Below are positions 7,247-24,511 of a DNA stretch of 24,791 bases, piece by piece. The stretch lies in the IMG/VR virus record IMGVR_UViG_3300030331_000425, positions 1 to 24,791 of that record. One strand, written 5' to 3'. The notes under the pieces were generated by a model. The model ran no database searches, had not been told where the DNA came from, and worked only from the letters and a program-made list of their open reading frames with translations. Position 1 is the stretch's first letter. Each line of letters opens with the position of its first letter. This DNA comes from a virus. The position numbers were made by a program, and so were the translations under genes.

Positions 7247-7271
7247 TTTACTCTCCTAAGTAAGAATTTTA

Positions 7272-7724: not shown

Positions 7725-7725
7725 A

Positions 7726-8643: not shown

Positions 8644-8654
8644 CATGCTCTCCA

Positions 8655-9309: not shown

Positions 9310-9310
9310 T

Positions 9311-9929: not shown

Positions 9930-9938
9930 TGCTACCTC

Positions 9939-10136
9939 CTAATAAACCTTAACTTTTTTATCATCAAGACTTGGTATGAGTTTACACATACACTCATAAT
10001 TTTCAACTTTAATCGGAACTTCTATTTTTTGCCTACTTAATCTTTCAGAATAATACAAACAATCATTTATATTTTTAAAATAAATACCGCCATTAAAATT
10101 ATCATTTAAATAGCACATAAGCATAAATACAGTCAT
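9939..10136 (-). CDS. Small hypothetical protein
   Basis: 65 residues, overlapping the previous gene by four bases (ATGA). It starts MTVFMLMCYLNDNFNGGIYF and ends with a Cys-x-Cys pair (YECMCKLIPS) and a basic tail. The hydrophobic start could be a weak membrane anchor or a beta strand. Similar short proteins occur next to holins in marine phages in my recollection; no function is known. Confidence 0.55.
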   Translation of the reverse strand: MTVFMLMCYLNDNFNGGIYFKNINDCLYYSERLSRQKIEVPIKVENYECMCKLIPSLDDKKVKVY

Positions 10137-10423
10137 TTTTTTCTTGCACGTTTCAATGACTCTTTAGCAGATTTTGCTATTTTTACAACCTCTGTTTTTT
10201 TCATTACTTTTGCCCTTTGTTCCATTACTGTTAGTATTTGGATCTTTCTTGCATAAGGCTTGTTAATTCTTTTAACTTTTGAGACTGTCGCTCTAGCATC
10301 TGCTGGAGTAGCAAATTTAATTCTAACTGTATCTTTAGGGTTTTCGTCAGTGTATAAACGTCTACCAGAACCTTTTGGTTTTTTTCCAGTTCCAACTTTA
10401 GGATCTTTTTTTGTTTTTGCCAT
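10133..10423 (-). CDS. Small Lys-rich protein
   Basis: 96 residues, strongly basic. It starts MAKTKKDPKVGTGKKPKGSG, followed by RRLYTDENPKDTVRIKFATP and ADARATVSKVKRINKPYARK. The middle half looks folded (alpha/beta, with a helix ADARATVSKV), unlike the low-complexity ends. The pattern recurs in marine phage contigs as I recall. Nucleic-acid or acidic-protein binding is plausible from charge only. Overlaps its neighbour upstream by 26 bases. Confidence 0.65.
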   Translation of the reverse strand: MAKTKKDPKVGTGKKPKGSGRRLYTDENPKDTVRIKFATPADARATVSKVKRINKPYARKIQILTVMEQRAKVMKKTEVVKIAKSAKESLKRARKK

Positions 10424-10547
10424 TTTTATATCTTTTGCTTTGATCTTTTTTTATTTTTGTCAAAACTTTCGCCTGCTTCGCATGTAGCTTAGACGCTTTT
10501 CTTAATCCACCTATAACTTTTTTTAAAGGTTTTGTATAATGAGGCAT
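10398..10547 (-). CDS. Tiny Lys-rich protein
   Basis: 49 residues, found by reading. Starts MPHYTKPLKKVIGGLRKASK and continues with LHAKQAKVLTKIKKDQSKR; the tail is pure Lys/Arg/Asn. AGGAG lies seven bases before the ATG, which is as good as any ribosome site in the window. It overlaps the next gene by 26 bases. The protein is one long amphipathic basic helix. Function unknown. Confidence 0.6.
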   Translation of the reverse strand: MPHYTKPLKKVIGGLRKASKLHAKQAKVLTKIKKDQSKRYKNGKNKKRS

Positions 10548-10568
10548 TTTAATCTCCTAAAATTAAAT

Positions 10569-10802
10569 TTAATTTTTTTCTTTTGTGTTGTTGTTAAAAT
10601 TATCTCCCTTATGTTCGTGACCCATCCATATACCAAAAACGCCTGTCATAACGCCCATGACAACTGATACGAACGCTGATTGACTGGCAGTTGGGGAATC
10701 GAGTTGCATGAACCATTCTGCACATCTCCACGACATAATCGTACTTACAAGCATCATCAGTCTAGGAAGGATCTTCCATTTCAAAAACGTCTCTACATTC
10801 AT
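10569..10802 (-). CDS. Small membrane protein with two hydrophobic segments
   Basis: 77 residues. Segment one is about residues 13-32 (PRLMMLVSTIMSWRCAEWFM), segment two about 41-60 (SAFVSVVMGVMTGVFGIWMG), with a polar C-terminal tail rich in Asn and Lys. Two short membrane passes and a charged tail fit a small holin or holin-modulator. It follows a single-pass protein by an ATGA overlap. Lysis involvement is inference from size, topology and nearness to the 3-TM holin. Confidence 0.6.
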   Translation of the reverse strand: MNVETFLKWKILPRLMMLVSTIMSWRCAEWFMQLDSPTASQSAFVSVVMGVMTGVFGIWMGHEHKGDNFNNNTKEKN

Positions 10803-11008
10803 TTCATTAACAACTCATTTAAACCGAAACCTTCTAAAAGAATAAGGGTAAAGAATAATAATAAAATACCACCTGCTATTAGCTTACCAGAAAAATTTGT
10901 AGAACCAATCTTTATTGCTACAAATTCATTGCTTAATATCCTCAAAGATAGTTCAAAACTATTCTCATCAATTTTTACGTTTATCGGTTTTTTCTTTTCT
11001 TCTGTCAT
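10799..11008 (-). CDS. Small single-pass membrane protein
   Basis: 69 residues: a polar N-terminal 40 residues (MTEEKKKPINVKIDEN) followed by one membrane segment near residues 43-62 (LIAGGILLLFFTLILLEGFG). Overlaps the next gene by four bases. It is likely an inner-membrane protein with a cytoplasmic head. It may belong to the same membrane/lysis group as the two-pass protein at 10569-10802. No known family recognised. Confidence 0.55.
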   Translation of the reverse strand: MTEEKKKPINVKIDENSFELSLRILSNEFVAIKIGSTNFSGKLIAGGILLLFFTLILLEGFGLNELLMK

Positions 11009-11010
11009 TT

Positions 11011-11163
11011 TTATTTAACTGCACTATTTAAAGAATTTATTACATCATCAATATTTGGCTCTTTTTGCCAAGGATTGTAAACACATTTAAATTTTTTAGG
11101 ACACCAACTCTCTATCATCATTTCGTAAGTTTCATTTCCGCCTTTATAAATACAAGCCATCAT
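11011..11163 (-). CDS. Tiny cysteine-containing protein
   Basis: 50 residues, found by reading. The ATG overlaps the stop of the coiled-coil membrane gene (ATGA). Sequence: MMACIYKGGNETYEMMIESW, then CPKKFKCVYNPWQKEPNIDD and a short helix. Three cysteines (about residues 4, 21, 27) could bind metal or form a disulphide. Coupling and the lack of any other gene in this gap support it; function unknown. Confidence 0.5.
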   Translation of the reverse strand: MMACIYKGGNETYEMMIESWCPKKFKCVYNPWQKEPNIDDVINSLNSAVK

Positions 11164-11759
11164 ACCAGTTTTTGATTTAATTCTTTTTGCAAGTCTACAA
11201 GTAGTATATTTTTTTTTTTGATTTTACCCTGCCATATTTTTTGTCGTTTTGTATAGTCTTTAGGTTTATAAATATAGCCCTCTGTCATGTGTATGTAATT
11301 ACTTGCTCTCGATTCTTTAATCCATATACCAGCAACTAAAACAACAAATCCACCTACAATACAAGCAACTATAAACCAGGTAACTGCTTCACCTATTTGT
11401 CTTCTTAACTGTTGTTGTTTATAAATTGTTTGTTGTCTTTCTTTGCGTATTTGACCTTCCATTTTTAAAAGGTCGTCATAAGCTTGTGGCCCATAAGTCA
11501 TGTTCAGAAACATCTTGAGTTCGTACCTTTGTTCCTCAAGTTTCTTCTTGGCTGCATAAGCAGAGAGAGCTGCCTCCTCAATTGATCCAGCCTTAAACAA
11601 CTTGCCAAACAGGGGAGGATTTTTTGCTTGTTTTTCAGCGTTATCAACATCAGATACAGCTCCCATCCAGCGTCCGATATCTCCAGACATTTGTTCCAAA
11701 TCACGACCTACCGAAAAACCCTGTTTTATTGCCGTAAATGCTTTTGAGGCTACTCCCAT
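11160..11759 (-). CDS. Coiled-coil protein with one membrane segment
   Basis: 199 residues. A helical N-terminal half (FTAIKQGFSVGRDLEQMSGD; EEAALSAYAAKKKLEEQRYE) is followed by a Gln/Arg-rich coil (GQIRKERQQTIYKQQQLRRQ), one strong membrane segment (about 127-147, VTWFIVACIVGGFVVLVAGI) and a basic C-terminal tail. The layout suggests a membrane-anchored helper or an internal virion protein that enters the envelope on infection. I recall similar proteins in marine phages but no tested function. Confidence 0.6.
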   Translation of the reverse strand: MGVASKAFTAIKQGFSVGRDLEQMSGDIGRWMGAVSDVDNAEKQAKNPPLFGKLFKAGSIEEAALSAYAAKKKLEEQRYELKMFLNMTYGPQAYDDLLKMEGQIRKERQQTIYKQQQLRRQIGEAVTWFIVACIVGGFVVLVAGIWIKESRASNYIHMTEGYIYKPKDYTKRQKIWQGKIKKKNILLVDLQKELNQKLV

Positions 11760-11798
11760 AGCTATTGATATTGTTACTGGATCTATCGCATGACTCCA

Positions 11799-12038
11799 TT
11801 AAAATACGCCCTGAAACCTTTGTGGCCTGGCTATCGGTGAAAATTTTTTAATCACGCCTCCACTACTCTTTTTTTGTGGATTTTTTTGATTTTTTTTTCG
11901 GCTTGCTAATTTTGGCTTTGATTTCCCCGCTTTCGACAACGCTATCGCTACTGCTTGTTTCTGTGGGTACTTCTCTTTCTTCAACTTGCGAATGTTCTTG
12001 CTTATTGTTTTCTGGCTCGATCCTTTCTTCAACGGCAT
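11799..12038 (-). CDS. Small basic protein, [12 protein letters not shown]-type
   Basis: 79 residues beginning [20 protein letters not shown], with [20 protein letters not shown]. This Gln/[11 protein letters not shown] signature is widespread in small phage and bacterial proteins (DUF6496-like, from memory). The tail ends with [25 protein letters not shown] lies six bases upstream of the ATG, inside the overlapping 86-residue gene. The two genes share about 176 bases in different frames; both have good ribosome sites. Confidence 0.6.
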
Positions 12039-12123
12039 TTACTACTCCTTCTTTTGCAAGTCTTCTTTGTCTTTTCTTTTCTTTTTCAACTTCCCAAATT
12101 TTTTCTCTTATTGAACTAACCAT
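11863..12123 (-). CDS. Small charged protein overlapping the next gene
   Basis: 86 residues, starting [20 protein letters not shown] three bases after the portal stop, with AAGGA six bases before the ATG. The first 30 residues are a basic/acidic helix, the middle is acidic and Ser/Glu-rich, and the end is Lys/Ser-rich ([13 protein letters not shown]). It overlaps the 79-residue gene out of frame by about 176 bases. Position and ribosome site favour a real gene; the function is unknown. A mostly disordered protein. Confidence 0.5.
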
Positions 12124-12126
12124 AAT

Positions 12127-14526
12127 TTATCCTTTCATAGCTTTCATTGCAGCAATATCTCTGGTTGTTTGATCTCTTTGATTAGCTAAATCTTCTTGTT
12201 GATCTAGTCTTTGCTGGTCAAGTAACACATCATTTCTTTCTTTTTCTTTATCAAATGTTTGCTTTTGATCAAATTGATCTTGCTTTTGTGCTATTTCTTG
12301 ACCTCTTAATGCTAATTCTTGCTTTCTAATTGTTACAAGAGGATCCTCATTTGGTGGCGGTGTTAACGCTTGTGCATATTGTTCTTGTATTTCAGATGCT
12401 AACTCTGCACTGCGTGACGCTACTTGATCTTGCATTGCCTTCATAGCATTTGGATCTTGCTGCATAATCATTTGTTGTTCTGGTGGTATTGTTGCCATAA
12501 CCTCTTGTTGTGCTTGTAAATCAGCCATTAAAGCTATGTGCTCAGATATATGCCCCTGTAGTGTCATAAGTATAGCAGCATTAGCTTGTGCAACAGGTGT
12601 GCTCATCATAGCTAAGTGTGCAGTTATATGAGCTTGATGATTTTGCTCTGGAAAAGCAGTTAACATAGCACCTTTTAAAGCTTCTTGATTTTCTTTGGCA
12701 GGATTCATAGGCATAGGTTGAGGAGGTGGTTGCAAAACAGCATCAATATTATTGACACCTAAAGCCTCATACATTTTTCTGTATGCTTGATACATTCCAT
12801 TGGGACCATGAATATCAGGATTACTTTGTGCTAGTTGCAGTTGTGTTTGTGCCAAAGCAATGCGTTGTGACATAGAAAAAATATTAGGATCAGAAACTGG
12901 TAATATATCTATTCTATCATCAAAATCTGTTTGTTTGATCTCAGGCGGTGCTCCAGGTACTTGATATGGATACATAGGCACATCCATAGCAAATATACGA
13001 GCTAATAATTTAAACTCTATCTTTTGTGAATAATGCAAACGCTTGTGTATTGCAGACATGACTTTTGTGCCACGTTCCATAATAGCCATTGTTGTGCCAA
13101 CTGGTGCATTGCCTTGCATCTCACCAACTTTCATGTCAGCCATAGATGCAAAGCGTCTACCAGAGTCTATTAAAGTACCAAGTAGTGAATACAAGGTTTG
13201 AGATGGCTCCTTAAATGGTAATGGCATAATCGCTTGACGCAAATCCATACCAACCATATCTACATCTCTGAACTCGCCAGGATTTAGCGGAGACTCATCA
13301 TCTCTAATCCTTGCACCTCTTGCTTTAAATCCTGCAGGCAAGTTAGATAATGTGCCTGCGTCAATTAGTTGTCTTAGAATTGATGTTGATGCTCTTGAAA
13401 GTCCACCTATCATATGAGTAAGGCCAAAGCCATAAAAGCCAAGACCAGGTAAGAACTTATAATGAACAAAATAAGGGATCTTCCTACGGAACGGATCACC
13501 TTCATTGAAATTCCTTTTGATTGATAATATTTCACCAGATTTCTCCACTATGGTAACGACATAGGGCATCTTTAATCCAGTGGGTTCTCCATCTTGGCCA
13601 ATATCTTCAAAGCCAATTAAATCTAAATCTGTGTGAACTTCATATAATGTTAACTCTTCGTTGTAACTAGAACCTTTTTCTACGCCTTGTATGTCATCAA
13701 TTGTTTCCTTGACCTCATCATAGTTTGATCCTCCGCTATCAGATGAGGGTAAATCTATATCTTTGTAAAACCCCTGCAATTGTAACTTTCTAATCTCATT
13801 TTTATCCATACGGACAACATGAGTAATGCGTGTAGATGTTTTAAGGTCTGTTGCATTGTAAGGAACAATTAAATCCTCTGCATGAACAAACTTAGAAACA
13901 GCTCTCTGCATTGAAGGGTCAAAGTAAATTTTTTTAAATGCTGAACCTACAATTGGAAGATAAAATAACATTTGATCTAACTCTGGATCATACTCTTCCA
14001 TTTCATAAGTTATTTGATAATTCATGTAATTTTTAACACGCTCTGCTTGTGCGAGTAACTCTGGGTTTTCTGACCCCACAATGTGTGTTCTTACAGGTCC
14101 ACTTGCTGGTAGCATTTCTCTGTATGCTTGTGCTTGAAACTGTGTAACGCTTTCTGCTAATAATGGGTGAACTACGCCAGATGCCCCCTCAAAAGGCTCT
14201 GCTCTATCCTCATAGTTCATGCCTAGTAGTTCTAAACCACCTTTGTACTGATCTTCCCAATCTCTTCTTGATGATATGTCTTCATCAATATCTCCAGTTA
14301 TATCGCTTGATATTACACCTAACTCACTTTCGTCTATGTATTCTGCTAAGTTGGCATTAAATGGCACTGGCATTGATGCTTCAAGTTGCTCTTGCATCTC
14401 GCCTATTATTGCAGATCCGTCTTCTAACTCTGTTACGCCAGGTGTTATTTCAGTCTCAGAAACAGATACTTGAACACCTTGAGGTAAATCTACGTTTTCA
14501 ACACCATTTACTTTTTCAATAGCCAT
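12127..14526 (-). CDS. Portal protein
   Basis: 799 residues, the size of portals of P22-like and SU10-like short-tailed phages. Early part: acidic leader, then WEDQYKGGLELLGMNYEDRA and PFEGASGVVHPLLAESVTQF, the conserved wing region. Middle: FDPSMQRAVSKFVHAEDLIV, then PYFVHYKFLPGLGFYGFGLT and the helical stem/clip region SILRQLIDAGTLSNLPAGFK. The last 200 residues are Gln/Met/Ala-rich helix (about 650-799), as in portals with a long barrel. Twelve copies should form the ring at one head vertex through which terminase packs DNA. It lies just after the terminase gene block. Confidence 0.85.
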   Translation of the reverse strand: MAIEKVNGVENVDLPQGVQVSVSETEITPGVTELEDGSAIIGEMQEQLEASMPVPFNANLAEYIDESELGVISSDITGDIDEDISSRRDWEDQYKGGLELLGMNYEDRAEPFEGASGVVHPLLAESVTQFQAQAYREMLPASGPVRTHIVGSENPELLAQAERVKNYMNYQITYEMEEYDPELDQMLFYLPIVGSAFKKIYFDPSMQRAVSKFVHAEDLIVPYNATDLKTSTRITHVVRMDKNEIRKLQLQGFYKDIDLPSSDSGGSNYDEVKETIDDIQGVEKGSSYNEELTLYEVHTDLDLIGFEDIGQDGEPTGLKMPYVVTIVEKSGEILSIKRNFNEGDPFRRKIPYFVHYKFLPGLGFYGFGLTHMIGGLSRASTSILRQLIDAGTLSNLPAGFKARGARIRDDESPLNPGEFRDVDMVGMDLRQAIMPLPFKEPSQTLYSLLGTLIDSGRRFASMADMKVGEMQGNAPVGTTMAIMERGTKVMSAIHKRLHYSQKIEFKLLARIFAMDVPMYPYQVPGAPPEIKQTDFDDRIDILPVSDPNIFSMSQRIALAQTQLQLAQSNPDIHGPNGMYQAYRKMYEALGVNNIDAVLQPPPQPMPMNPAKENQEALKGAMLTAFPEQNHQAHITAHLAMMSTPVAQANAAILMTLQGHISEHIALMADLQAQQEVMATIPPEQQMIMQQDPNAMKAMQDQVASRSAELASEIQEQYAQALTPPPNEDPLVTIRKQELALRGQEIAQKQDQFDQKQTFDKEKERNDVLLDQQRLDQQEDLANQRDQTTRDIAAMKAMKG

Positions 14527-14528
14527 GA

Positions 14529-15632
14529 TTATCTAAGCTTAAACTTTCCACCCGCTCTCGCAGCACCCATGCCTCTACAGACACCGCCGCCAGAACCCAT
14601 CTTTACAGGCCCACCTGCCTCAAATTTTTTAGCTAAAGTAGGATTCATCTTTTCTTGCACCGCCTCTGGTAACTTTGAAAAACCTTTAAACTTTTTTGGA
14701 ACAGCACCACCATCTTCCATTCTTGTGGCAATACCCATCATCCTGTTCATTCTATCTCGATCAACATCAGATATATTTGCTGTTCTTCCCATTAAACGTC
14801 TTAACATTGCCCTCTCAGCATCAGACATTGTTGAAGCTTTTTCGCCAAGAATTTGCATCATCATTGCACGATCAGAATCAGATGTTGCTCCACCTTCTTG
14901 CATCTTTTTAGCTTTTTTCATAGCTTCCTCATTAGTTTTAGCCACTCTTTTGCTAAACTCTTCATTTAAGATAATAGTCTTATCAGCTCTAAATGGATCT
15001 TTTTTGGGCCTCATCTTTGGCTTTGGCACGTTACCGCCATCTTTCATCTCTTTAGCCTTAACTTTTTCGATTGCTTCCATAAGTCCGCCATCTTTTTTGT
15101 TTGGAATAAATTTTATACCGCCCTCTGGCTGGACTGATATTGTACCATCTTTGAGTCTTTTCTTGCCTGTTTGTCTAATCCTACCATCTTTATCAACTTT
15201 AATTATAGGTCTTACTGAACCACCATCTTTTGCCATAGTTATTGTCTCCTTCTGAATACTCAAAGCACTCCCAGGTTTTGGTGTAATATCAAAAGTCTGT
15301 GGCTTTGCTTTTACCTTACTTGTTTTTGCTATTTTTTTCAAACGCTTTGTAAGGATGGCATCTTTCTTTTTCTGCATATCAACTGTCTTAATACCAGTTT
15401 TACCCTTACCAAAATCAGAAACCATCTTAGCTAAACCCTTTAATGGATCTACCTTACCACCTGTTTTAAGAAGTTTTAACTGCTTCATTTTAGTGGTATC
15501 AATGACTTTTATCTTTGGAGTTTCTTTTTGTTTCATCGGTGGCATCCTTCTTCCAAAATACTTGCCAGGAACTGGTTGACCTCTTTCTTCTAACTCTCTG
15601 TAAGCTCTCCTTCTATCTGCTTCATCTGACAT
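14529..15632 (-). CDS. Lys/Gly-rich protein with three tandem repeats
   Basis: 367 residues between terminase and portal. Mostly disordered and basic, with many Gly-Gly motifs (KTGGKV, KDGGSV, KDGGLM, KDGGNV, QEGGAT, EDGGAV, EAGGPV). Residues 251-305 hold three tandem units of 18-19 residues built on S-D-x-[DE]-R-x-x-M-x-x-x-x-G (SDSDRAMMMQILG, SDAERAMLRRLMG, SDVDRDRMNRMMG). The tail reads GGGVCRGMGAARAGGKFKLR, like other small proteins here. It might be an internal virion or DNA-condensing protein; that is inference. TGATG overlap with terL shows coupling. Confidence 0.6.
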   Translation of the reverse strand: MSDEADRRRAYRELEERGQPVPGKYFGRRMPPMKQKETPKIKVIDTTKMKQLKLLKTGGKVDPLKGLAKMVSDFGKGKTGIKTVDMQKKKDAILTKRLKKIAKTSKVKAKPQTFDITPKPGSALSIQKETITMAKDGGSVRPIIKVDKDGRIRQTGKKRLKDGTISVQPEGGIKFIPNKKDGGLMEAIEKVKAKEMKDGGNVPKPKMRPKKDPFRADKTIILNEEFSKRVAKTNEEAMKKAKKMQEGGATSDSDRAMMMQILGEKASTMSDAERAMLRRLMGRTANISDVDRDRMNRMMGIATRMEDGGAVPKKFKGFSKLPEAVQEKMNPTLAKKFEAGGPVKMGSGGGVCRGMGAARAGGKFKLR

Positions 15633-17101
15633 CAGTAATACTCCATCTTTCTTCTGTAAGCGGGTTCAAACTCCTCATCGTCTGGTGTAGCTATAAAACC
15701 ACCTTGTCTGAATCTTAGTATAGCCTGTGTCATCGAATCTGCCAAGTCATCATGATCACCATGTGGAAAACTCGCACATTCCTCAACAACCTCCTCTGCA
15801 AAATTTGCATCTGGTCTCCAAACCATACCACTTTCAAACACAGGTGCACAAGCATTCATTCTAGCAAACTTATCAGCACCCTTGCTTGGCGTAAATGGCG
15901 TAACTGGAACACCCATACGTCTTAACTCTTGTGTTAATGGCGTGCCACTTGCTTTCTGCTCTATCAAAATCATGTCAGGATCATATGCCTCGGACAACTC
16001 CATTGCTTTTTGCTTGAGTTCTGGAAAATCCCATCTGCCTTTTTCTGCGTCAAGCAAGATGATGGCATCTCCTTCTCCATCAACTGGAGTAAAAATACCC
16101 CAAGTAGTAATAGCACTATAATCAGAACGCTCATTTTTTGTGAACGCTGTGTCGTAGGACTGTATGACATACGAACAGGCAGGTGGGTTATCAGGATTCC
16201 AAACATTCCACCACTCCCTTTTTATTATCGCACCTTCTTCAGCAGTTGGGTTCTGCATATATTGTGCGTTCCATTTACCTACAGGAATAGATGCCTTAAC
16301 GCCCTCTAACTCTTCTCTGCTCCAATATTCTGGCCATAATACATTATCTGTATCTGGAAAAATAGCAGGGAACTCCACGATCTCCCATTTATCAGCTCCG
16401 CCTTGTGCCTGCTTTTGTAATACTCTAGCAGTTAAATCTTTAATACCCCATCTTGTCATAACGATAATTATAGAACCGCCTGGTTGCAGTCTTTGTCTTG
16501 GACCTGATGTATACCAATCATAAATACTGTCCAAAGCCGTTGGACTTAAAGCATCTTGTTCTGATACTGGATCATCAATGATAAGTAAATCCGCACCTCT
16601 ACCAGCTAAAGCACCGCCTACACCAACTGCATAATACTCGCCACCTTTGTTCGTTGACCATCTACCAGATGCTTTTGCATCCGCTGCCAACTTAACATCT
16701 GGAAATACATCACGAAAGTCATCGCTATCAATTAAGTTCTTAACCTTACGACCAAAGCCAACTGCTAATTCTGCCGTATGTGTTGCTTGTATTATTTTTA
16801 AATCAGGGCGTTTGCCCATAAGCCAAGAAGGAAATAAATAACTCGCAAACTCAGACTTTGTATGTCTTGGCGGCATATTGACAATCAAACGCTTAATCTT
16901 ACCATCAGCTACTTGCTGTAGTTTATCTGCATATATCTTATGATGCCTGCCCTCAATGAAAGATGGCCATATGCGTTTGACAAAATCTATATACTTATCT
17001 TGACTTGCTTTCTGCTTTTCAAGCATTGAAAGTCTGTCTAGCATGGGAGCTATCTTAGATAACTCATCATCACTTAAATATTCTGCAAACTCTAGGTTCA
17101 T
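15632..17101 (-). CDS. Terminase large subunit
   Basis: 489 residues, standard size. ATPase part: Walker A-type PPRHTKSE at 77-84, Walker B LLIIDDP at 172-178, coupling-type TRWGIKDLT at 216-224. Nuclease part (RNase H-like): YDTAF with Asp317, LIEQKASGTPL with Glu381, and GDHDDLADS with Asp449 to Asp452. All key residues are present, so the motor and nuclease should be active. It docks on the portal and packs and cuts DNA. The small subunit is unusually distant, at 22579-23106, with about 5.5 kb between. Confidence 0.93.
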   Translation of the reverse strand: MNLEFAEYLSDDELSKIAPMLDRLSMLEKQKASQDKYIDFVKRIWPSFIEGRHHKIYADKLQQVADGKIKRLIVNMPPRHTKSEFASYLFPSWLMGKRPDLKIIQATHTAELAVGFGRKVKNLIDSDDFRDVFPDVKLAADAKASGRWSTNKGGEYYAVGVGGALAGRGADLLIIDDPVSEQDALSPTALDSIYDWYTSGPRQRLQPGGSIIIVMTRWGIKDLTARVLQKQAQGGADKWEIVEFPAIFPDTDNVLWPEYWSREELEGVKASIPVGKWNAQYMQNPTAEEGAIIKREWWNVWNPDNPPACSYVIQSYDTAFTKNERSDYSAITTWGIFTPVDGEGDAIILLDAEKGRWDFPELKQKAMELSEAYDPDMILIEQKASGTPLTQELRRMGVPVTPFTPSKGADKFARMNACAPVFESGMVWRPDANFAEEVVEECASFPHGDHDDLADSMTQAILRFRQGGFIATPDDEEFEPAYRRKMEYY

Positions 17102-18795
17102 GTTCCTGTTGCTAAGAAATCGTCAACCGCTTTTATTAATCCACCATCTTTAGCGGCAACTATTGGTTTTGCAGGCACACCAGTTAATAATTCAATTAAC
17201 TTGTTTAATTCACCACTGTCAAATCCTATTGGCTCAATTTTTGATGTCGCTGGTGCAAAAGGACTTGCAACAACTGTTGGTGTGTCAGTTGGTGTTCCTT
17301 TTATTGGCATTCCACCAATTACATTCGGCGGCAAGTCATCTTTCTTTTCTTCTTCTTTTTTTAACACTAAAGGTTTTATTACTGGTTCATCTGAATCACC
17401 ACCTAAGTCTAAAGGTGCGTTAAAATCCATACCACTTCTAACTGCACCAGTAACAGGATCTCTTGATCCAGTAATTCTGCCTTGACTATCATAGATCGGA
17501 TCAAAGTTTCCAGATGCTAAGTCAGATAAAATAAAATCTTTTGCCTTCTGCTCTGCAAAGTTTAAACCTGTTGTAACAAAACTTGGAATTTTACTCATTA
17601 TACCACCACTAAATTGTGTAGGCCTTTTGTCGAGTTGTTGCAGTTGAGACGCTAAATTTTTGTTTTGAAACACACCTAGAGTGTCCTCTCGTGGATCATC
17701 AGAAAATATATCTGATCCACTTGTTAATGCGTCTGCAAATTCTTGTGATAACCCCATGTTCTCATCAAAACTGTCAGATGTATCTTCTTGACCATCATCA
17801 CTACTTCCAAAATCCTCAGATGGACCAAAGGCATCTTCGAAACCAGAATAATCGACATCTCCACCTTCAAACATATTTTGTACTTGACCACCATTTTCGT
17901 ACAATACTTTTCTCATAGACCCAACTGGAGTTCCATCTTCAAAAAAGAAACCTTCATCCCTGTCTTCTGCTGGCCTTCTAAATAATTCAATATCACCACC
18001 TGGACCATCAGATCGATTTACAGTGTCTATCTTATCAATTGGCGGGTCTCTAAAAAAATCTAAAATATTTATAGGTTCTAAACTAGGTGGTCTTTTTGCA
18101 AGAGCTGCATCTATTGCAGCTTGCTCTGCAGGAGATTTTACATCTCTTTGCATATTTCTAGACATTGCCTCTTCGTAAGTGTAATTATAATCTTTAGTTG
18201 AATCACCAAATCCAAGGTCATCAATTAGTTTGGCAGGTTCAGTCATTTTCTGTAGTCCCTCAAAAGGATTACTAGGTGTAAATATAGGCATCTCACCTAA
18301 ACCAGGTCTCGTATTGGTCATAGGTGGTTTTAAATTTTGTGTTGGTGGTAATGATACGCTTGGCGAAGAAGTAACTTGTGGCGGAGCTGGCGTTGATGTC
18401 AAACCGCCTCCACCTGTGCCTGATCCAGAGCCATTTAAATTAAATCTCTGCTTTGCCATCTGCTCTATTTCTTCAATAAATGGCTGAACTTGAGTATCAT
18501 CAATTCTCTTTGATAAAAAATCTCCGTAACTCGCTAATGGACCACCTGCAAAACCACCTTCTTGCATCATCTGCACTGGTGGGTTGAAAATGTCAATATC
18601 AGACATTGTGGGTGCCAAGGTTGGGGCTGAGGCACCCACCATAGGTGCTAATGGAGGACTCGCCGCACCATTCATATTCTTCAAAAACGTGCTAAAATTG
18701 CCACGACTAGTGGCCGTTGTGTCTAATTTTACTTGTGGTGGCTGTGCTGGTGCGGGTGGGGTCGGCATAAAACCGCCCATAGGTCCATTGGCCAT
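17098..18795 (-). CDS. Large Pro/Gly-rich phage protein, unknown function
   Basis: 565 residues from ATG 18793-18795 (a TTG lies one codon upstream). Low-complexity Pro/Ala N-terminus (MGGFMPTPPAPAQPP), a Gly/Pro linker near 125-160, an acidic region near residues 320-370, and repeated Gly-Gly motifs (QEGGFAGGPL, ENGGQV, FEGGDV, KDGGLI). The last gene before terL, overlapping it by four bases. No enzyme motif is seen. Possible internal or portal-associated virion protein. GGAG eight bases upstream lies inside a hairpin (18801-18828). Confidence 0.6.
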   Translation of the reverse strand: MANGPMGGFMPTPPAPAQPPQVKLDTTATSRGNFSTFLKNMNGAASPPLAPMVGASAPTLAPTMSDIDIFNPPVQMMQEGGFAGGPLASYGDFLSKRIDDTQVQPFIEEIEQMAKQRFNLNGSGSGTGGGGLTSTPAPPQVTSSPSVSLPPTQNLKPPMTNTRPGLGEMPIFTPSNPFEGLQKMTEPAKLIDDLGFGDSTKDYNYTYEEAMSRNMQRDVKSPAEQAAIDAALAKRPPSLEPINILDFFRDPPIDKIDTVNRSDGPGGDIELFRRPAEDRDEGFFFEDGTPVGSMRKVLYENGGQVQNMFEGGDVDYSGFEDAFGPSEDFGSSDDGQEDTSDSFDENMGLSQEFADALTSGSDIFSDDPREDTLGVFQNKNLASQLQQLDKRPTQFSGGIMSKIPSFVTTGLNFAEQKAKDFILSDLASGNFDPIYDSQGRITGSRDPVTGAVRSGMDFNAPLDLGGDSDEPVIKPLVLKKEEEKKDDLPPNVIGGMPIKGTPTDTPTVVASPFAPATSKIEPIGFDSGELNKLIELLTGVPAKPIVAAKDGGLIKAVDDFLATGT

Positions 18796-18800
18796 CAAAA

Positions 18801-18837: not shown

Positions 18838-19245
18838 CTAAGTGGCTTTTTGCAATAGCATTGTCATCTCTCTATTGCTCTGATCTAACAACCTTGTTAC
18901 CCAAATCTCGTCTTGACGCTTATCAGCCTCGCCTATCGTGTGCTCTATGGCGTTGCAAAGCTTCCAAATACGCTGTTCTTCATGTTTTGTTAGTGGGTTT
19001 TTGTTATTATCAAAAGATTTTACCTCTTTTGTGGCTTTTTCAGCCTTTTTAGTGTCAGTATGATACAAAACTGCAAATTTTACCGCCTTTGGTATGCGAT
19101 TTTGACCAGATTCATAACATCTGTAGCCCCTCTCGCTCAATCCTAACGTCTTTGCAAAGTCTATCTGACTCAATCGTAGCTCATTTCGGTGTTTTTTTAA
19201 TATTTCACCATCCCAATCGCTATAACTCGTATCGCTTTTCTTCAT
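18838..19245 (-). CDS. Xre/Cro-CI-type helix-turn-helix regulator
   Basis: 135 residues. A helix-turn-helix of the lambda-repressor type covers about residues 15-65: ILKKHRNELRLSQIDFAKTL, GLSERGYRCYESGQNRIPKA. The rest is helical and charged with no protease-like domain, so a LexA/CI-type self-cleavage is not expected. It would bind DNA as a dimer. It is the only clear DNA-binding regulator in the window and a candidate for the operator-like promoter spacers. The start overlaps the previous stop by four bases (ATGA), so it shares the promoter at 19482-19510. Confidence 0.8.
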   Translation of the reverse strand: MKKSDTSYSDWDGEILKKHRNELRLSQIDFAKTLGLSERGYRCYESGQNRIPKAVKFAVLYHTDTKKAEKATKEVKSFDNNKNPLTKHEEQRIWKLCNAIEHTIGEADKRQDEIWVTRLLDQSNREMTMLLQKAT

Positions 19246-19475
19246 TCTACCCTCTTTAGTAGTTTGTTTTGAATTAAATCCTCAACCAACTCCTCATCAG
19301 TGCCATATCTCATGTATTTGCCACTCCAATCACACGCTATTTCAGCAAAACCTTTGCGAAAATCATCGTGAGTTTTGTAATAAGCCTCTGAATCTGCATA
19401 CAATTGCTGCACAATCTCTTTTGGAGTGCCCTGGTATACATTATCGGACATTGGTTCTAAAATATATTTAATCAT
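19242..19475 (-). CDS. Small acidic protein in the regulator operon
   Basis: 77 residues from ATG 19473-19475; another ATG at 19451 would give 69 residues (MSDNVYQGTPKEIVQQLYAD). A longer frame to 19583 would run across the promoter and is unlikely. The sequence is mixed helical (PKEIVQQLYADSEAYYKTHD) with no known motif. The promoter start point is predicted right at the first ATG, so translation is leaderless or begins at the second ATG. Function unknown; paired with the Xre-type gene. Confidence 0.6.
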   Translation of the reverse strand: MIKYILEPMSDNVYQGTPKEIVQQLYADSEAYYKTHDDFRKGFAEIACDWSGKYMRYGTDEELVEDLIQNKLLKRVE

Positions 19476-19481
19476 ATTAAG

Positions 19482-19510
19482 TTTATAGGCTTTGATTGCC
19501 GAAAGGTCAA
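19482..19510 (-). promoter_or_regulatory. Promoter P1 for the Xre-type regulator operon
   Basis: Minus strand: TTGACC (19505-19510), exactly 17 bases, TATAAA (19482-19487). Immediately upstream lies a run of A and T (19511-19535) like an UP element. The spacer TTTCGGCAATCAAAGCC shares ten bases in a row (TCGGCAATCA) with the spacer of promoter P2. It probably starts transcription of the small acidic protein and the regulator and may feed the late block. Confidence 0.8.
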
Positions 19511-19608
19511 GAAATTTTTTTATAAAATTTTTTTGCCCAGCGTATTTCAAAAACCTGGGGGCCGTTTGAGGGGAACTCGGCAAAAAGGTATTACCGCCGA
19601 CAATATAT

Positions 19609-19640
19609 AAAAAAAGGTGGGTATATACCCTATACCCACC
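19609..19640 (-). terminator. Intrinsic terminator after the amidoligase gene
   Basis: Perfect 10-bp stem (GGTGGGTATA at 19616-19625 with TATACCCACC at 19631-19640), five-base loop. On the minus strand it is followed by seven U (19609-19615). It lies 43 bases after the amidoligase stop and separates that unit from promoter P1. Between stop and stem two direct repeats of TACCGAATT (19653, 19669) occur. Confidence 0.85.
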
Positions 19641-19682
19641 CGATTATATCGGTACCGAATTAATACGATACCGAATTTATTT

Positions 19683-20891
19683 TTATGATAATGCTACAAT
19701 TCTTTGATCAAAATAGTTAGCTAGATCTTGACTAATATTTTCATAAACAAAATCAGCTACGTTATAATCAGTAGTAATGGAACCTAAAGACATTCTTGTT
19801 AAAGTTTCTCCATCGTTAATTTTATATCCGCATAAATCATGCTGACCTTGGCTCGATCCATTTTCATAACCATATGAATGTTGGGTTAAACACGTAACCG
19901 CTTTTTGTGTTCTGTATTTTCTTTTAATGGTATTAACTGTACGAGCTACTGAACCTCTACAATTAATATCACATTCTAGCATAATCTCTTGAACCGTTGC
20001 TCCTTGCGGTCTTGATGCTATTTCATAAAACTTAAATAACTTTGTACGAGGTCTAAAGATATTTGACATTGTAAACTCTTCAACATCACCGCTATTAGTT
20101 AGCTTAACTCTATTTTGATAGCTATGATTAAACATACCTAACATTAAATGAGCAAAGTTATTTATCTTATTAAAGTTTAATGTTCCGCTATGTTGCCTAA
20201 CCTCAATAGTATTTTTTGAGATATAAGTTTTATTAAGATTAACAGAATAAAATTTTGTTAGGTAATTATTCATTCGTCTATCATTAACCGCATCATCACA
20301 ATATATAGCTTTTTGTAATTGCTCAACATTAGTGCTATTTTTAATAGGATCTAGATAAGCATAACTTATTGGCATACACATTCTATTCATACGTCTAGAC
20401 TTAGGTAACATAGAAGATATTTTATTTTGATGTTTACAATATCTATAAACAAAATCTTTAATAACCTCAAAATTAAGCATTTCCATATTTTCACATTGAA
20501 AGTAAAAATTTCTATGTTGTTTAAATCTCTCAATTGATTGTTCAAAAAAATCTTTTTGAGAAATATTAATAGGTCTTAAACCTATATGAACATGATGACC
20601 GCAAGATTGTTTAACCTTACAACCTAAAGTTTCATCTAAATAATTATAAAATTCTTTTAGAAATTTTTCTGTATATGGCGAACCTATTTCTAAAGGTGGG
20701 AGTTTAATTTCACAACCTGTTTCTCCTAAATATTCTCGATCTACTTTAGGAGCTAAGAAACTATATTTTTCATGATTAGATAAAATATCGGCCATTTGAT
20801 GTTCATTATATTTTAAACATTCTATTTCTAGACCCATAGCTAAACGTATACTGTTAACGTCTAATATTTTGTTATGTGTTATTATATCCAT
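19683..20891 (-). CDS. Amidoligase-family protein (COOH-NH2 ligase) with HTH-like tail
   Basis: 402 residues. N-terminal two-thirds match the Amidoligase_2 type (glutamine-synthetase-like fold): GLEIEC at 20-25, CEIKLPPL at 60-67, CGHHVHIG at 97-104, and TIEVRQHSGTLNFNKI at 228-243; the Glu, His and Arg of these motifs form the expected metal/ATP site. Such enzymes join a carboxyl group to an amine using ATP. Residues about 285-360 (GATVQEIMLECDINCRGSVA, RTVNTIKRKYRT, GYKI) look like a winged helix. The substrate is unknown: a peptide, a host protein, a polyamine or a cell-wall part. The family is known beside AIG2-type cyclotransferases, and one is present at 23841-24293. AAGGA lies ten bases upstream of the ATG. 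Confidence 0.75.
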   Translation of the reverse strand: MDIITHNKILDVNSIRLAMGLEIECLKYNEHQMADILSNHEKYSFLAPKVDREYLGETGCEIKLPPLEIGSPYTEKFLKEFYNYLDETLGCKVKQSCGHHVHIGLRPINISQKDFFEQSIERFKQHRNFYFQCENMEMLNFEVIKDFVYRYCKHQNKISSMLPKSRRMNRMCMPISYAYLDPIKNSTNVEQLQKAIYCDDAVNDRRMNNYLTKFYSVNLNKTYISKNTIEVRQHSGTLNFNKINNFAHLMLGMFNHSYQNRVKLTNSGDVEEFTMSNIFRPRTKLFKFYEIASRPQGATVQEIMLECDINCRGSVARTVNTIKRKYRTQKAVTCLTQHSYGYENGSSQGQHDLCGYKINDGETLTRMSLGSITTDYNVADFVYENISQDLANYFDQRIVALS

Positions 20892-20939
20892 TGTTATTTT
20901 TCCTTATATTGTTTTAAAATGTATATAGAGTGTCGCATA

Positions 20940-20971
20940 TATAGGTAATGAATGCAAGTTATAATTGTTCG
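20940..20971 (+). promoter_or_regulatory. P4: promoter-like element at the left edge of the array
   Basis: Plus strand TATAGGTAATGAATGC (20940-20955) differs by one base from the spacer of promoter P3, and a perfect TATAAT follows (20960-20965), running into the half-site AATTGTTCG (20963-20971). No -35 is present, so promoter strength is doubtful. It might drive rightward transcription over the array, or serve as an operator for the leftward amidoligase gene. Confidence 0.4.
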
Positions 20972-21115
20972 TTTTTGTTGATTTTTAGCGTTTTTTTTAC
21001 CTATTATGTAAACGATTGAGCTATATAAATTATTCAAAAAATATTAATTTTTTTAAAATTATCGGCCATTTTGCTGGATTGTTCGCTTTTTGGATACTGG
21101 GCTTCAGGTAGGATA

Positions 21116-21570
21116 TGGGCCCGACCTGAACCCGACCCGAACATTAGCCCCGACTGGCCCGAGCCCGACCCGAACACCGAACAATTGTTCGGTTTTTACA
21201 GGTGCAGCAGGTCTGGCCTCCACGCCAGGTAGTCCAGGGGATACTGGTTGAAGGGATGCCCAGACCCGATACCGAACAATTGTTCAAAACAGCCTGACCC
21301 GAAGGCCCGAAGACAGTCTGGGTAAGCTGGGCAGCTCGGCGTAAAGCGAACAATTGATCGGTTACAGCTTCGCTGCAGGTCTGGGCACTAGGCCCAGCTC
21401 AATATAAAGCGAACAATTATTCGTTTTTGTGGAGGCTGCAGGTCAGGCCCAGGACTGGCGTAGCGAACAATTATTCGATTTTCTGACCCAGGCAGGTCTG
21501 GACCCGAACAAAAAAAACCCCGAGCCAGAAGCTCGGGGCTTATAATTTGCACGCATGCCCGAACAATTCG
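21116..21570. repeat. Palindrome array, block A
   Basis: GC-rich segment. 14-bp elements on the plus strand: 21178 CGAACAATTGTTCG (perfect 18-bp dyad 21176-21193), 21273 CGAACAATTGTTCA, 21347 CGAACAATTGATCG, 21410 and 21464 CGAACAATTATTCG, and a truncated one at 21560. Spacings are 95, 74, 63 and 54 bp. Degenerate, inverted half-sites lie outside the left end (20963, 21078). The left arm CGAACAATT never varies; the right arm does. Spacers carry GCAGGTCTGG and small hairpins such as CTGGGCACTAGGCCCAG (21381-21397). The left border (21116-21180) is a run of CCCGAN hexamers. No protein-coding signal is convincing. Confidence 0.9.
21510..21538 (-). terminator. Intrinsic terminator after the acidic protein gene
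   Basis: Perfect 8-bp GC-rich stem (CCCCGAGC at 21518-21525 with GCTCGGGG at 21531-21538), five-base loop, then eight U on the minus strand (21510-21517). It lies 50 bases after the stop of 21588-21944, inside array block A, and stops leftward transcription before most of the block. Confidence 0.9.
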
Positions 21571-21587
21571 GGGGGTGCAAAACCTGT

Positions 21588-21944
21588 TTAAAATCTGCTA
21601 ATGATAAAAGGAAGTTCCTTTTCATCATCATTCTTGCCTTGCCAACAATCAGGTAAGATAACGCTGGTGTAGTAATCCAAGCATAGTTTATCGCCTCCTA
21701 ATACTTGGTCGTAAGTGTCTCCGTAGTCATCCTCAAACTCTTTCCAGTTTGCGTATTCTGTATAATCGCAACAGATAGCCACAACGTCCAGCTCAATTTG
21801 TTTGTTGTCCATGCACTCGCTGACCTCCCAAAGATAATCATATAGTGCTTTTAAACCCTCATAAGAAAAATGGTTCTTATAAGTGTCCCATTTTCTAAAA
21901 GCATCGATAAACTGATGCTCGTTAATAGTTTCTACAATTGCCAT
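21588..21944 (-). CDS. Small acidic phage protein inside the palindrome island
   Basis: 118 residues, very acidic (about 27 Asp/Glu against 10 Lys/Arg). It begins MAIVETINEHQFIDAFRKWD, then FSYEGLKALYDYLWEVSECM, ELDVVAICCDYTEYANWKEF and an acidic stretch EDDYGDTYD. This type (TIN-x2-x-F-x2-AF..., FSYEGL.ALYDYL, LDVVAICC-[DE]-Y-[ST]-EY) recurs in phages and plasmids as a hypothetical protein. The charge could mean DNA mimicry, as in anti-restriction proteins, but this is not shown. GGAG six bases before the ATG; own promoter (21978-22006) and terminator (21510-21538), with array blocks on both sides. Confidence 0.75.
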   Translation of the reverse strand: MAIVETINEHQFIDAFRKWDTYKNHFSYEGLKALYDYLWEVSECMDNKQIELDVVAICCDYTEYANWKEFEDDYGDTYDQVLGGDKLCLDYYTSVILPDCWQGKNDDEKELPFIISRF

Positions 21945-21977
21945 AATAGACTCCTTTTGTTTTTGTTTGTCCTTATA

Positions 21978-22006
21978 TATATAGTCAATGATTGCCGATC
22001 AGTCAA
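21978..22006 (-). promoter_or_regulatory. Promoter P2 for the acidic protein gene
   Basis: Minus strand: TTGACT (22001-22006), 17 bases, TATATA (21978-21983). The spacer GATCGGCAATCATTGAC contains the dyad CAATCATTG. Long A-runs on the minus strand (22018-22036) upstream look like an UP element. It drives the gene at 21588-21944; the start point should fall near 21971. Confidence 0.8.
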
Positions 22007-22071
22007 CAGGTAATTTATCTTTTTTTTATTTTTTTTCAGAACTGGGGCAACTGGGGCCTCGCTGCCAGAAG

Positions 22072-22560
22072 CGAACAATTGTTCACGCTGTCTTCAGGCA
22101 GCAGGAACAAGCTGGGCAGTCTGGGCCATCGGCTGCGTAAGCGAACAATTGTTCAAAGTGCTTCCCAGGCAGCAGGGCCTTGTCTGGTTGGAACTGGTCA
22201 TTAGCTGCGTAAATGAACAATTGTTCGTAATCCCGAACAGCAGCAGGCCCGAGCCTCCCTGGTTGAACTGGTGGATCTGGGTACAGGGCGAACAATTGTT
22301 CAGAACCCGACAGGCTGCGTGACCTGCTGGACCCCGAAGCCCGAACAATTATTCACTTTAGGCAGCAGGTGAAGGCCTGGGTGTCCCGAAACCGAACAAT
22401 TATTCGGTCTGGGCAGCAGGTTGAACCAGGCTGGGCAGGAACCCGAAAAGCGAACAATGGCTGTTTTCTGCGGGTTTGGTGGTAACCCGAAGCCCGAAGT
22501 ACCCAAGCATCAGCCCGAGCCCGAGGTCTGGGCAACCCCGAACCCGACTGCCCGAGGCAC
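22072..22560. repeat. Palindrome array, block B
   Basis: Elements on the plus strand: 22072, 22142 and 22289 CGAACAATTGTTCA; 22214 TGAACAATTGTTCG; 22342 CGAACAATTATTCA; 22393 CGAACAATTATTCG; a left half-site at 22451. Spacings are 70, 72, 75, 53, 51 and 58 bp. Spacers share GGCAGCAGG about 10 bases after each element, then CTGGG or CTGGTT, and in two cases GCTGCGTAAG just before the next element. The right border (22485-22556) is again CCCGAN-rich. The region ends 20-30 bases from the terS stop. Several frames stay open on the minus strand, but only because the repeat units lack stop codons. Confidence 0.9.
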
Positions 22561-22578
22561 CCCCGCAAGTGTTTTCTG

Positions 22579-23106
22579 CTAATTTGTGGGTTTTACGCTA
22601 CTATGTTCTATCGTATTTGGGTCGTTATGGGTAGTGTTCGCTATTTTCATGCGTTTATGGGCAAGTTCCTGAAATTCCTGTAGTTTTGTCAGTATTTGTT
22701 CTCTTGTCATAGTGTCTGCCTGTTCATGTAGCACATGGGCCTTATTTACAAGCAATCCTGTAGCCTTTAAGCGTAGTTCTTCAGCCCGAATAGCCTCACC
22801 AAACTTCCCGCTCTCCCAAGCCTCATTTCGTATCTTTAATAAATCCCGCACCGACTTCTCAATTGTTACCCCGAATCGACTCCGAGCTTCCTCCCGCATC
22901 TCTTGATAACGCTCTTGGACAACTGGGTTCCGAAGCAGCCTAACTGCATCTACTCCAGGGTTAGCATATCCCGCTGCTCTCGCTGCAGACGTCTGCGTCA
23001 TATCTTTGTGCATGAAGTTATCAAGAAAAGCTTGTTGTTTATCTGTTAGTCTTTTCTGACCAGATAGCCTTCGCTCCCTAGACAGATCTTCACCTACTCT
23101 TGGCAT
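22579..23106 (-). CDS. Terminase small subunit (Terminase_2 type)
   Basis: 175 residues from ATG 23104-23106, chosen for GGAG five to six bases upstream; the longer frame from 23121 has no ribosome site. Residues about 18-70 hold the helix-turn-helix: KRLTDKQQAFLDNFMHKDMT, QTSAARAAGYANPGVDAVRL, LRNPVVQERY. A coiled oligomerisation part follows. The small subunit recognises the packaging start site and regulates the large subunit. Here terL is about 5.5 kb away, and the palindrome array starts directly after this gene, so the array is a candidate for its binding region. This last point is inference. Confidence 0.8.
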   Translation of the reverse strand: MPRVGEDLSRERRLSGQKRLTDKQQAFLDNFMHKDMTQTSAARAAGYANPGVDAVRLLRNPVVQERYQEMREEARSRFGVTIEKSVRDLLKIRNEAWESGKFGEAIRAEELRLKATGLLVNKAHVLHEQADTMTREQILTKLQEFQELAHKRMKIANTTHNDPNTIEHSSVKPTN

Positions 23107-23269
23107 TAGTTCTCCTTTCATTATCTAACTCGGCTATTTTATCTTTTAGTTGATTTATAATAGGTCTAAAATATTTTGGTTTACGGATGCTTCTTAAATA
23201 TTTTTCGTGGCGAGTTTCTAACATCGTGTAATGTAATAGTCGTAATCCTAATTGTTTTCTTTTGTTCAT
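23090..23269 (-). CDS. Small basic coiled-coil protein before terS
   Basis: 59 residues, found by reading. Starts MNKRKQLGLRLLHYTMLETR, then KPKYFRPIINQLKDKIAELD and a basic tail. The second half is a good heptad pattern (IINQLKDKIAELDNE). It overlaps the terS start by 17 bases, so the two are translated together. Ribosome site is weak (AGGG nine bases upstream). It might be a partner of terS; function unknown. Confidence 0.6.
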   Translation of the reverse strand: MNKRKQLGLRLLHYTMLETRHEKYLRSIRKPKYFRPIINQLKDKIAELDNERRTNAKSR

Positions 23270-23317
23270 TTCAAAGATCCCTTAATCTGCTTTTTGCTAA
23301 CAATGTATATAGGGTAT

Positions 23318-23360
23318 GGGGCGGGTTACTTACCGCCCCCCTATACCCCCTTATAGGGGG
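23318..23360. other. Two mutually exclusive GC hairpins
   Basis: Stem 1: GGGGCGG (23318-23324) with CCGCCCC (23333-23339). Stem 2: CCCCCTATA (23337-23345) with TATAGGGGG (23352-23360). They share bases 23337-23339 and so cannot form together. No U-run follows on either strand. This is a possible attenuator or protein-binding structure upstream of the terS genes. Confidence 0.5.
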
Positions 23361-23529
23361 TAAGTTCGGTAAGTTGGTAAGTACCAATAAAATCAATGAC
23401 TTAGGAAGCATAAAATACTTACCAAGGGCTTTCGTAACCTCGGTAAGTAAATTAGATATACATATATAAAACAATGACTTACAACTTACCATGAATTTTA
23501 CTTCCCGTGGTAAGTTCGTAAGTGTAAGT
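23328..23529. repeat. GTAAGT/ACTTAC repeat cluster
   Basis: About eleven copies in 200 bp. GGTAAGT at 23359, 23368, 23376, 23442, 23509; GTAAGT variants at 23517 and 23523; ACTTACC at 23328, 23417, 23484; ACTTACA at 23477. Two tight triplets have 6-9 bp steps (23359-23382 and 23509-23529). No supported gene lies in 23270-23532. The layout is iteron-like; origin or operator function is inference. Confidence 0.75.
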
Positions 23530-23532
23530 AAA

Positions 23533-23841
23533 TCACTCATAAATGACCAGGACTTTCTCATCATTTGTTCGCTTAAACCAGCTGCCTGCGTTGGTGCATT
23601 CGTACCCAAGTTTTTTCATAGTTCCCCAAGTTACGACAAAGCAATAATGGCAATCATTAGGTCCAGTTCCAGCTTTCTTAAAGCAATTAAGCTTATGGTT
23701 AATGTCCACACTATGGACCCGAGTGATACCTTTTTCTGTGGCACAACCGAGGCAAATAGTTTTGTTATTCAAAACCAACTCTCGGTTGCGTAAGATTTGT
23801 TCGCTACACTCAGTGCAGCGGATCAGATCAACGTTAATCAT
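23533..23841 (-). CDS. Small zinc-binding-type protein
   Basis: 102 residues with eight cysteines. C9-x2-C12 and C30-x2-C33 (RCTECSEQIL and TICLGCATEK) look like a zinc ribbon; C53, C64, C67 and C82 (NDCHYCFVV) could form a second site. The rest is mixed. TAATG overlap couples it to the AIG2-type gene upstream. It may bind DNA, RNA or a protein. I do not recognise a named family. Confidence 0.6.
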   Translation of the reverse strand: MINVDLIRCTECSEQILRNRELVLNNKTICLGCATEKGITRVHSVDINHKLNCFKKAGTGPNDCHYCFVVTWGTMKKLGYECTNAGSWFKRTNDEKVLVIYE

Positions 23842-24293
23842 TAGCTACCTACCTTTCTAAATACATCTAATTTATTTTTTTGCATTTGGTCGGCCTCATG
23901 CACTGCCCAATTAAGATAATCAGTATCAAGGCCAAAATCTTCATAACCCTGGGCAATAGTGTTGAAGTAATGAGCGGCGGGCAATGCCACACCTTTATTA
24001 CGCATAACATAAATCATTACTTTACCATTAACACCTGGAATATCTAAATCGACCCTAATCTTTTTATACAAGTATGGATAGCCCTCGAATCTATCTAAGG
24101 ACTTCTCACATTCTTTGGTGATTTTCCATAAGCCAATAGGCACTTGTGCGTCTTTGTCCTTAACAATGTCTGCAACACCATTAAAGACAAGCCTAAAGCC
24201 CTCGAGCATGAAGCTAATCATGGGTTGGGCTTTGGGGCAACGCACTGCCATATTGTCTTTATTTAGATTGGCACCATAAGCACCATAATACAT
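23841..24293 (-). CDS. AIG2 / gamma-glutamyl cyclotransferase-fold protein
   Basis: 150 residues, standard size. N-terminal YYGAYGANLNKDNMAVRCPK is the family's substrate-loop signature (usually YGSNL; here the Ser is Ala). KSLDRFEGYPYLYKKIRVDL carries the likely catalytic Glu70. The C-terminal helix region (YFNTIAQGYEDFGLDTDYL) also matches. Known members remove gamma-glutamyl groups from amines or peptides as 5-oxoproline. With the amidoligase at 19683-20891 it could form an add-and-remove pair for a glutamyl-type tag; this is inference. Overlaps both neighbours by one base (TAATG). Confidence 0.75.
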   Translation of the reverse strand: MYYGAYGANLNKDNMAVRCPKAQPMISFMLEGFRLVFNGVADIVKDKDAQVPIGLWKITKECEKSLDRFEGYPYLYKKIRVDLDIPGVNGKVMIYVMRNKGVALPAAHYFNTIAQGYEDFGLDTDYLNWAVHEADQMQKNKLDVFRKVGS

Positions 24294-24448
24294 TATGATA
24301 ACTCCTCTAAGGTACTTGAGATTTTATCAATAGTTTCTTGACCACTTGTACTCATTCTATCGTAATCAAAATACAAATCGTCAATTAACTTACTGACTTT
24401 CTCTAAATCTTTTTTAGTAAAGACTTTAACTTTTACTAAGTTTTCCAT
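24293..24448 (-). CDS. Small helical protein, first gene after promoter P3
   Basis: 51 residues, found by reading. MENLVKVKVFTKKDLEKVSK, then LIDDLYFDYDRMSTSGQETI and a short helix. AAGGAG lies six to seven bases before the ATG. TAATG overlap with the AIG2-type gene supports coupled translation. It is a charged helical protein with no recognised motif. Confidence 0.65.
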   Translation of the reverse strand: MENLVKVKVFTKKDLEKVSKLIDDLYFDYDRMSTSGQETIDKISSTLEELS

Positions 24449-24482
24449 AACATACTCCTTTCATTTAAAATGTTATCCTGTA

Positions 24483-24511
24483 TTTATAAGCAATCATTAC
24501 CTATATGTCAA
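24483..24511 (-). promoter_or_regulatory. Promoter P3 for the AIG2-type operon
   Basis: Minus strand: TTGACA (24506-24511), 17 bases, TATAAA (24483-24488). A perfect -35, one mismatch in -10, optimal spacing. The spacer TATAGGTAATGATTGCT agrees with the P2 spacer at 11 of 17 positions and nearly repeats at 20940-20955. The start point should be near 24476, about 28 bases before the first gene. Confidence 0.85.

Follow-up and report, generated by a model that had tools for sequence, protein, structure and literature searches.

The stretch of DNA analysed here (the window) was a 24.8-kb virus record classed as linear, with three promoters located on its minus strand. P1 (19482..19510; TTGACC-TTTCGGCAATCAAAGCC-TATAAA, reading from 19510 to 19482), P2 (21978..22006; TTGACT-GATCGGCAATCATTGAC-TATATA, reading from 22006 to 21978) and P3 (24483..24511; TTGACA-TATAGGTAATGATTGCT-TATAAA, reading from 24511 to 24483) all possessed a 17-nt spacer between the -35 and -10 boxes. 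The first-pass annotation had described the same three promoters, with TCGGCAATCA common to the P1 and P2 spacers and with P2 and P3 identical at 11 of 17 spacer positions, and all of this was confirmed. A simple promoter scan of the window did not list P1–P3 and revealed no promoter excess; the three were omitted because the scan demands T as the last base of the -10 box.

An A/T-rich UP-like tract (19511..19534, minus strand), conserved in the P1 orthologues, was detected upstream of the P1 -35 box. The first gene after P1, orf77 (19242..19475, minus strand), had its ATG 6 nt behind the -10 box and was followed by the gene encoding an Xre/HTH_19-type DNA-binding protein of 135 aa (18838..19245, minus strand), a candidate repressor and autorepressor. 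The structural genes (57..18798, minus strand), encoding a 566-aa protein, TerL, portal, capsid and others, were colinear with P1-orf77-xre and lay behind them. No terminator was called between orf77, xre and the structural genes, all of which run in the same direction, and no TTGAC-type promoter with the dyad described below was present inside 57..18798. P1, assigned in the first-pass annotation to a regulator operon, leads into orf77 and xre and then into the structural genes. P2 preceded the gene for an acidic 118-aa protein (21588..21944, minus strand), and P3 a group of minus-strand genes (22579..24449) comprising a small ORF, an AIG2/gamma-glutamyl cyclotransferase (AIG2/GGCT) protein (23841-24293), a zinc-finger protein (23533-23841) and TerS (22579-23121).

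The core of the P2 spacer had been annotated as a dyad of 9 bp. The symmetry was real, but the element was 13 bp long (GGYAATSATTRCC) and anchored to the -10 box. The complete word, found in several matches from viral contigs, was GGCAAT-S-ATTGCC (GGYAAT-S-ATTRCC), a 13-bp dyad with a central C or G that ended exactly at the -10 box; comparison with relatives showed that GGYAATSAWWG is half of it. The window contained imperfect versions of this word, with 4/6 dyad pairs in the putative P1 operator GGCAATCAAAGCC (19488..19500), 5/6 in that of P2 (GGCAATCATTGAC, 21984..21996) and 4/6 in that of P3 (GGTAATGATTGCT, 24489..24501), all on the minus strand. At P1, the left half and the outer GG/CC were kept, and the right half was degenerate in all relatives.

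A fourth copy, overlooked in the first-pass annotation, was found at 20944..20956 (plus strand, GGTAATGAATGCA). This putative operator, read on the minus strand as TGCATTCATTACC followed by TATATA, was located upstream of a gene encoding an amidoligase-like protein (PF12224; 19683..20891, minus strand) and had no clear -35 box. The window thus carried four copies of GGYAATSAWWG versus 0.24 +/- 0.51 in shuffled sequences, none of which reached four, and no occurrence of the same word read backwards. These window statistics were weak in themselves, as the motif was picked after the sites had been seen, and its reality was settled by the independent relatives that carry it. Loose matching was uninformative, since the full dyad with three mismatches was observed 15 times in the window against 15.05 expected.

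The search of 2.9 million viral contigs with TTGAC-N5-GGYAATSAWWG-N2-TATA returned 25 stretches, compared with four (two distinct sequences) for a reversed-spacer control. In 18 long records, picked for carrying the motif or xre, there were 29 motif matches and no control matches. The 35 distinct non-P1 operators had on average 4.0 of 6 complementary pairs versus 1.5 in shuffles, and none of 20,000 shuffles reached 4.0. Among 23 P1 orthologues, 12 had a central C and 11 a central G; neither A nor T occurred there, a pattern that a site read from both strands should show. A column-shuffle test of covariation within the dyad came close to significance for the central and outer pairs only; most dyad columns were nearly fixed, which accounts for the weak signal elsewhere. 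The contigs with dyad sites ranged from about 32 to 51% GC. Single matches in unrelated viral contigs (L004/L022, the L005 group, L020, L021, L024 and L025) were set aside as chance or unexplained; some of them fell inside long ORFs, and no Xre homologue was found in these contigs. A near-perfect dyad promoter was also noticed at position 2494 of a phage contig (L011) in which no DNA similarity to the window was detected and which encodes a generic 87-aa HTH protein (5230-5493) with a different recognition helix.

The window virus was related via its portal and terminase to the Pelagibacter phages HTVC027P and HTVC023P, to phage 023Pt_psg01 and to DSL-LC04. In two long records of relatives, nearly every intergenic TTGAC-type promoter had the dyad in register. 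These promoters were designated P1–P7: equivalents of P1, P2 and P3, a fourth promoter, two promoters before small-gene clusters and that of the replication operon. One of the seven had a 16-nt spacer, and its dyad was still anchored to the -10 box. In these two records, a few weaker noncoding matches, perhaps not promoters at all, were without the dyad, as were all of the coding matches, and the dyad sites were essentially restricted to promoters. Across 43 family loci, the GG of the dyad was in register in 68 of 92 noncoding promoter matches versus 3 of 32 coding ones, most of the remaining noncoding matches being second readings of the same promoter or a dyad shifted by one base.

An out-of-sample set of about 48 loci was fetched by distant Xre homologues (about 31–36% identity) with the DNA motif unused, although 3 of the 18 proteins in the alignment behind this search came from motif-related loci. 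The dyad core GCAATSATTGC, scored as GYANTNANTRC with one mismatch allowed, was present in 36 of the 43 distinct noncoding promoters of this set and in 10 of the 22 assigned to coding DNA, where some intergenic promoters have probably been miscalled. It often formed a perfect GCAATGATTGC adjoining TATATA. Several distant loci had P1 equivalents with GCAATCTTTGC, and in many others the scan called none upstream of xre. These loci confirmed the dyad promoters out of sample. The enrichment of the motif at other promoters of the phage group, named in the first-pass annotation as the check to be made, was strong. That annotation had also placed three operons under common control; the operator reading gained support, but this scope was too narrow, as the same dyad lies inside nearly every recognisable TTGAC-type promoter of the window virus and of more than 70 relatives. 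No dyad promoters were seen in the cultured relatives HTVC027P, HTVC023P, CRP-902, DSL-LC04 and 023Pt_psg01, and no Xre homologue was found in the cultured relatives lacking the dyad.

Among 29 loci encoding a close relative of the Xre-type protein, 28 were examined for an upstream promoter, and P1 was detected in 27 of them, 26 with a strict TTGACC-17-TAT arrangement and one (L040) with TACAAC as the -10 box; the 28th (L052) does not contain the P1 region. The spacer word of the P1 orthologues was GGCA(A/C)TSANNNCC, preceded by the conserved A/T tract before the promoter. The first ATG lay about 6–8 nt behind the -10 box, so close that the mRNA of the first P1 gene is probably leaderless. A coherent change of the operator with Xre divergence (GGCAAT to GGCACT) was rejected because a genome with the altered P1 had retained GGTAAT at P3. 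The small gene upstream of xre, orf77, had no significant match in Pfam or PHROG.

The HTH_19/HTH_3 match of the whole Xre-type protein in Pfam was slightly under the cut-off. In eight long records scanned as DNA, this protein was the only HTH_3 protein above the cut-off in six and the best HTH_3 match, below the cut-off, in the other two. The protein possessed a Cro/C1-type helix-turn-helix; its AlphaFold model comprised helices H13-22, H27-33 and H38-45 with a pLDDT of about 90 and a C-terminal half of low confidence, and residues R20, Q27, S37, R39, Y44 and E45 were invariant over the HTH in the alignment. Its profile or model weakly resembled C-proteins, P22 C2, 434 and Aca1/Aca2/Aca10 in the PDB, with no match at E below 0.001. 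A partial survey of ten further proteins from the two long records, mainly small early-region unknowns, revealed no recognisable regulator domain. Two distant Xre proteins had no match in any phage of the annotated collection. The xre gene was located directly behind P1, the most conserved site, and was co-conserved with the dyad; in one relative (L008), no dyad promoter was present directly upstream of it. All dyad genomes with a confirmed Xre form one lineage, so the co-occurrence may reflect shared descent. The earlier proposal of the protein at 18838-19245 as the candidate binder was supported by this co-occurrence, by the gene position and by its being the sole recognisable HTH_3 protein.

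Judging from sequence, the spacer dyad is best regarded as an operator for a dimeric repressor made by the phage, the likeliest candidate being the Xre-type protein from the second gene behind P1, which would shut the early promoters (probability about 0.7). The dyad takes up the spacer as far as the -10 box, so that the repressor dimer and RNA polymerase would be mutually exclusive at the promoter. Xre would accumulate after infection and jointly shut the early/middle promoters, that is P2, P3, the amidoligase site and, in relatives, also the promoter of the replication operon, and it would throttle its own promoter P1 by autorepression. The degenerate right half suggests that P1 should be bound more weakly, one half-site being kept and the other lost, and because this weaker site also leads into the structural genes, the late genes could continue to be expressed while the early operons are off. 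A MerR-like activator is unlikely, since MerR-type promoters have spacers longer than 17 nt and the spacers here already measure 17 nt. The best reading of the compared genomes would be a virulent-type phage with an Xre/Aca2-like autorepressor occupying the spacers and a weakened site retained at P1.

A wider proposal can be put forward tentatively, at somewhat less than even odds: in this marine lineage, which is uncultured and apparently virulent, the whole transcription programme may rely on host sigma-70 promoters and one repressor with its dyad in nearly every spacer, the decay of the site at the structural operon setting the order of shut-off, so that the phage would need no RNA polymerase, sigma factor or antiterminator of its own for its early–late switch. 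Hardly anything is known about temporal control in uncultured marine podovirus-like phages. For the phages described here, the sequence discloses the likely regulator together with its site and almost all of its regulon, which makes the circuit directly testable, and the dyad provides a motif for locating promoters and operons of this lineage.

A second palindrome, GAACAATTGTTC, formed two arrays in the window (21175-21480 and 22070-22405) with 11 copies (at most one mismatch) about 50–100 bp apart, in GC-rich noncoding DNA flanking the P2 gene and adjoining terS. Most Xre-bearing relatives had such arrays and five cultured relatives all lacked them; the arrays are possibly packaging or origin sites. 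As this palindrome is equally lineage-specific, Xre could bind it instead, with the dyad left to another phage protein, for example an unrecognised DNA-binding protein or a small protein whose gene diverges from the replication promoter. Such an arrangement was judged unlikely. In one relative (G001), a 65-aa ORF next to the replication promoter looked ribbon-helix-helix-like by eye, but it had no convincing Pfam or PHROG match; moreover, the arrays lie around P2 and terS and not at P1, the place where the site of an Xre autorepressor would be expected, and xre stands directly behind the most conserved dyad site.

It is likewise improbable that a host transcription factor recognises the dyad and that the phage promoters are plugged into a host regulon. 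The resemblance of these promoters to host sigma-70 promoters and the spread of the dyad sites over contigs of differing GC content would fit such a factor, but a search of 257 billion bases from bacteria and archaea with the full promoter-plus-dyad pattern, a strict one, gave a single match (a Bacteroidales MAG), and the dyad tracks the phage lineage and its xre gene.

The anchoring of the word to the -10 box and its presence at nearly all promoters of the group could also be expected of a recognition element of RNA polymerase, i.e., an extended promoter and not the operator of a regulator. This was considered very improbable in view of the two-fold symmetry with a strand-indifferent central C/G and of the related Pelagibacter and Roseobacter phages without the dyad; no sigma-70 element is known to occupy that position of the spacer. 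Chance resemblance among AT-rich promoters has next to no probability, for although the motif was picked post hoc, single matches in unrelated contigs (L004, L005, L024 and L025) look random and the control pattern also yields a few matches, it was refuted by the out-of-sample distant loci, the shuffles and the noncoding versus coding counts.

With Xre as the presumed repressor of the dyad promoters, the circuit would be analogous to an Aca-type autorepressor spread genome-wide or to a many-operator phage repressor without lysogeny genes. P22 C2 and the 434 repressor and Cro are Xre-fold dimeric repressors that use short dyads to block sigma-70 promoters. The Xre-type protein had weak profile matches to them, but they act on a few clustered operators of a lysogeny switch, whereas here about one site per promoter was found genome-wide. 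The temperate Streptomyces phage phiC31 likewise has one repressor and many conserved inverted repeats near its early promoters, but with longer dyads; literature searches on these repeats and on operators of lytic phages gave no results.

The anti-CRISPR-associated (Aca) families repress a core promoter that contains an inverted repeat (PMC9410906). The window showed a similar design: a small gene is followed by that for a small HTH protein of the phage, and the core promoter before them contains an inverted repeat; the order P1-small gene-xre was found in the relatives holding the region, with a P1 repeat that is only partly symmetric. The PDB chains matched by the Xre profile or model included Aca1, Aca2 and Aca10, the similarity to Aca2 being weak (profile E 0.007, Foldseek E 0.05). 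In contrast to Aca, described for acr-aca promoters, the dyad here was present at nearly all promoters of the group, and no anti-CRISPR was identified, the small upstream gene having been checked against Pfam and PHROG. As no anti-CRISPR link was found and the repression is a prediction, the protein was filed under Xre-type repressors and membership in Aca is not claimed.

In the immunity systems of mycobacteriophages, too, a single repressor is matched by numerous copies of one site throughout the genome (PMC9283540). Their stoperators, however, are asymmetric sites, many of them outside promoters, which stop elongation in temperate phages, whereas the sites described here were dyads essentially only at promoters in the two long records. 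No tyrosine (PF00589) or serine (PF00239) integrase, as a mark of a lysogeny module in the same genome, was detected in any of eight records, all possibly fragments, of which two exceeded 57 kb.

Other repeats at promoters were noticed among the relatives. In HTVC027P (L074), two promoters (19224 and 19774) carried a dyad TAGGAT-A-RTCCTA over the -10 box, a hint of the same design with another word. The dyad was not seen in another relative (L028), whose promoter spacers at 148 and 858 contained a direct repeat TATGGGA...TGGGA. The window phage encoded both an amidoligase (19683-20891) and an AIG2/gamma-glutamyl cyclotransferase (23841-24293), each behind a dyad site, and dyad promoters also preceded the genes for an AIG2-like protein (L002) and an amidoligase-like protein (L014) in distant relatives.
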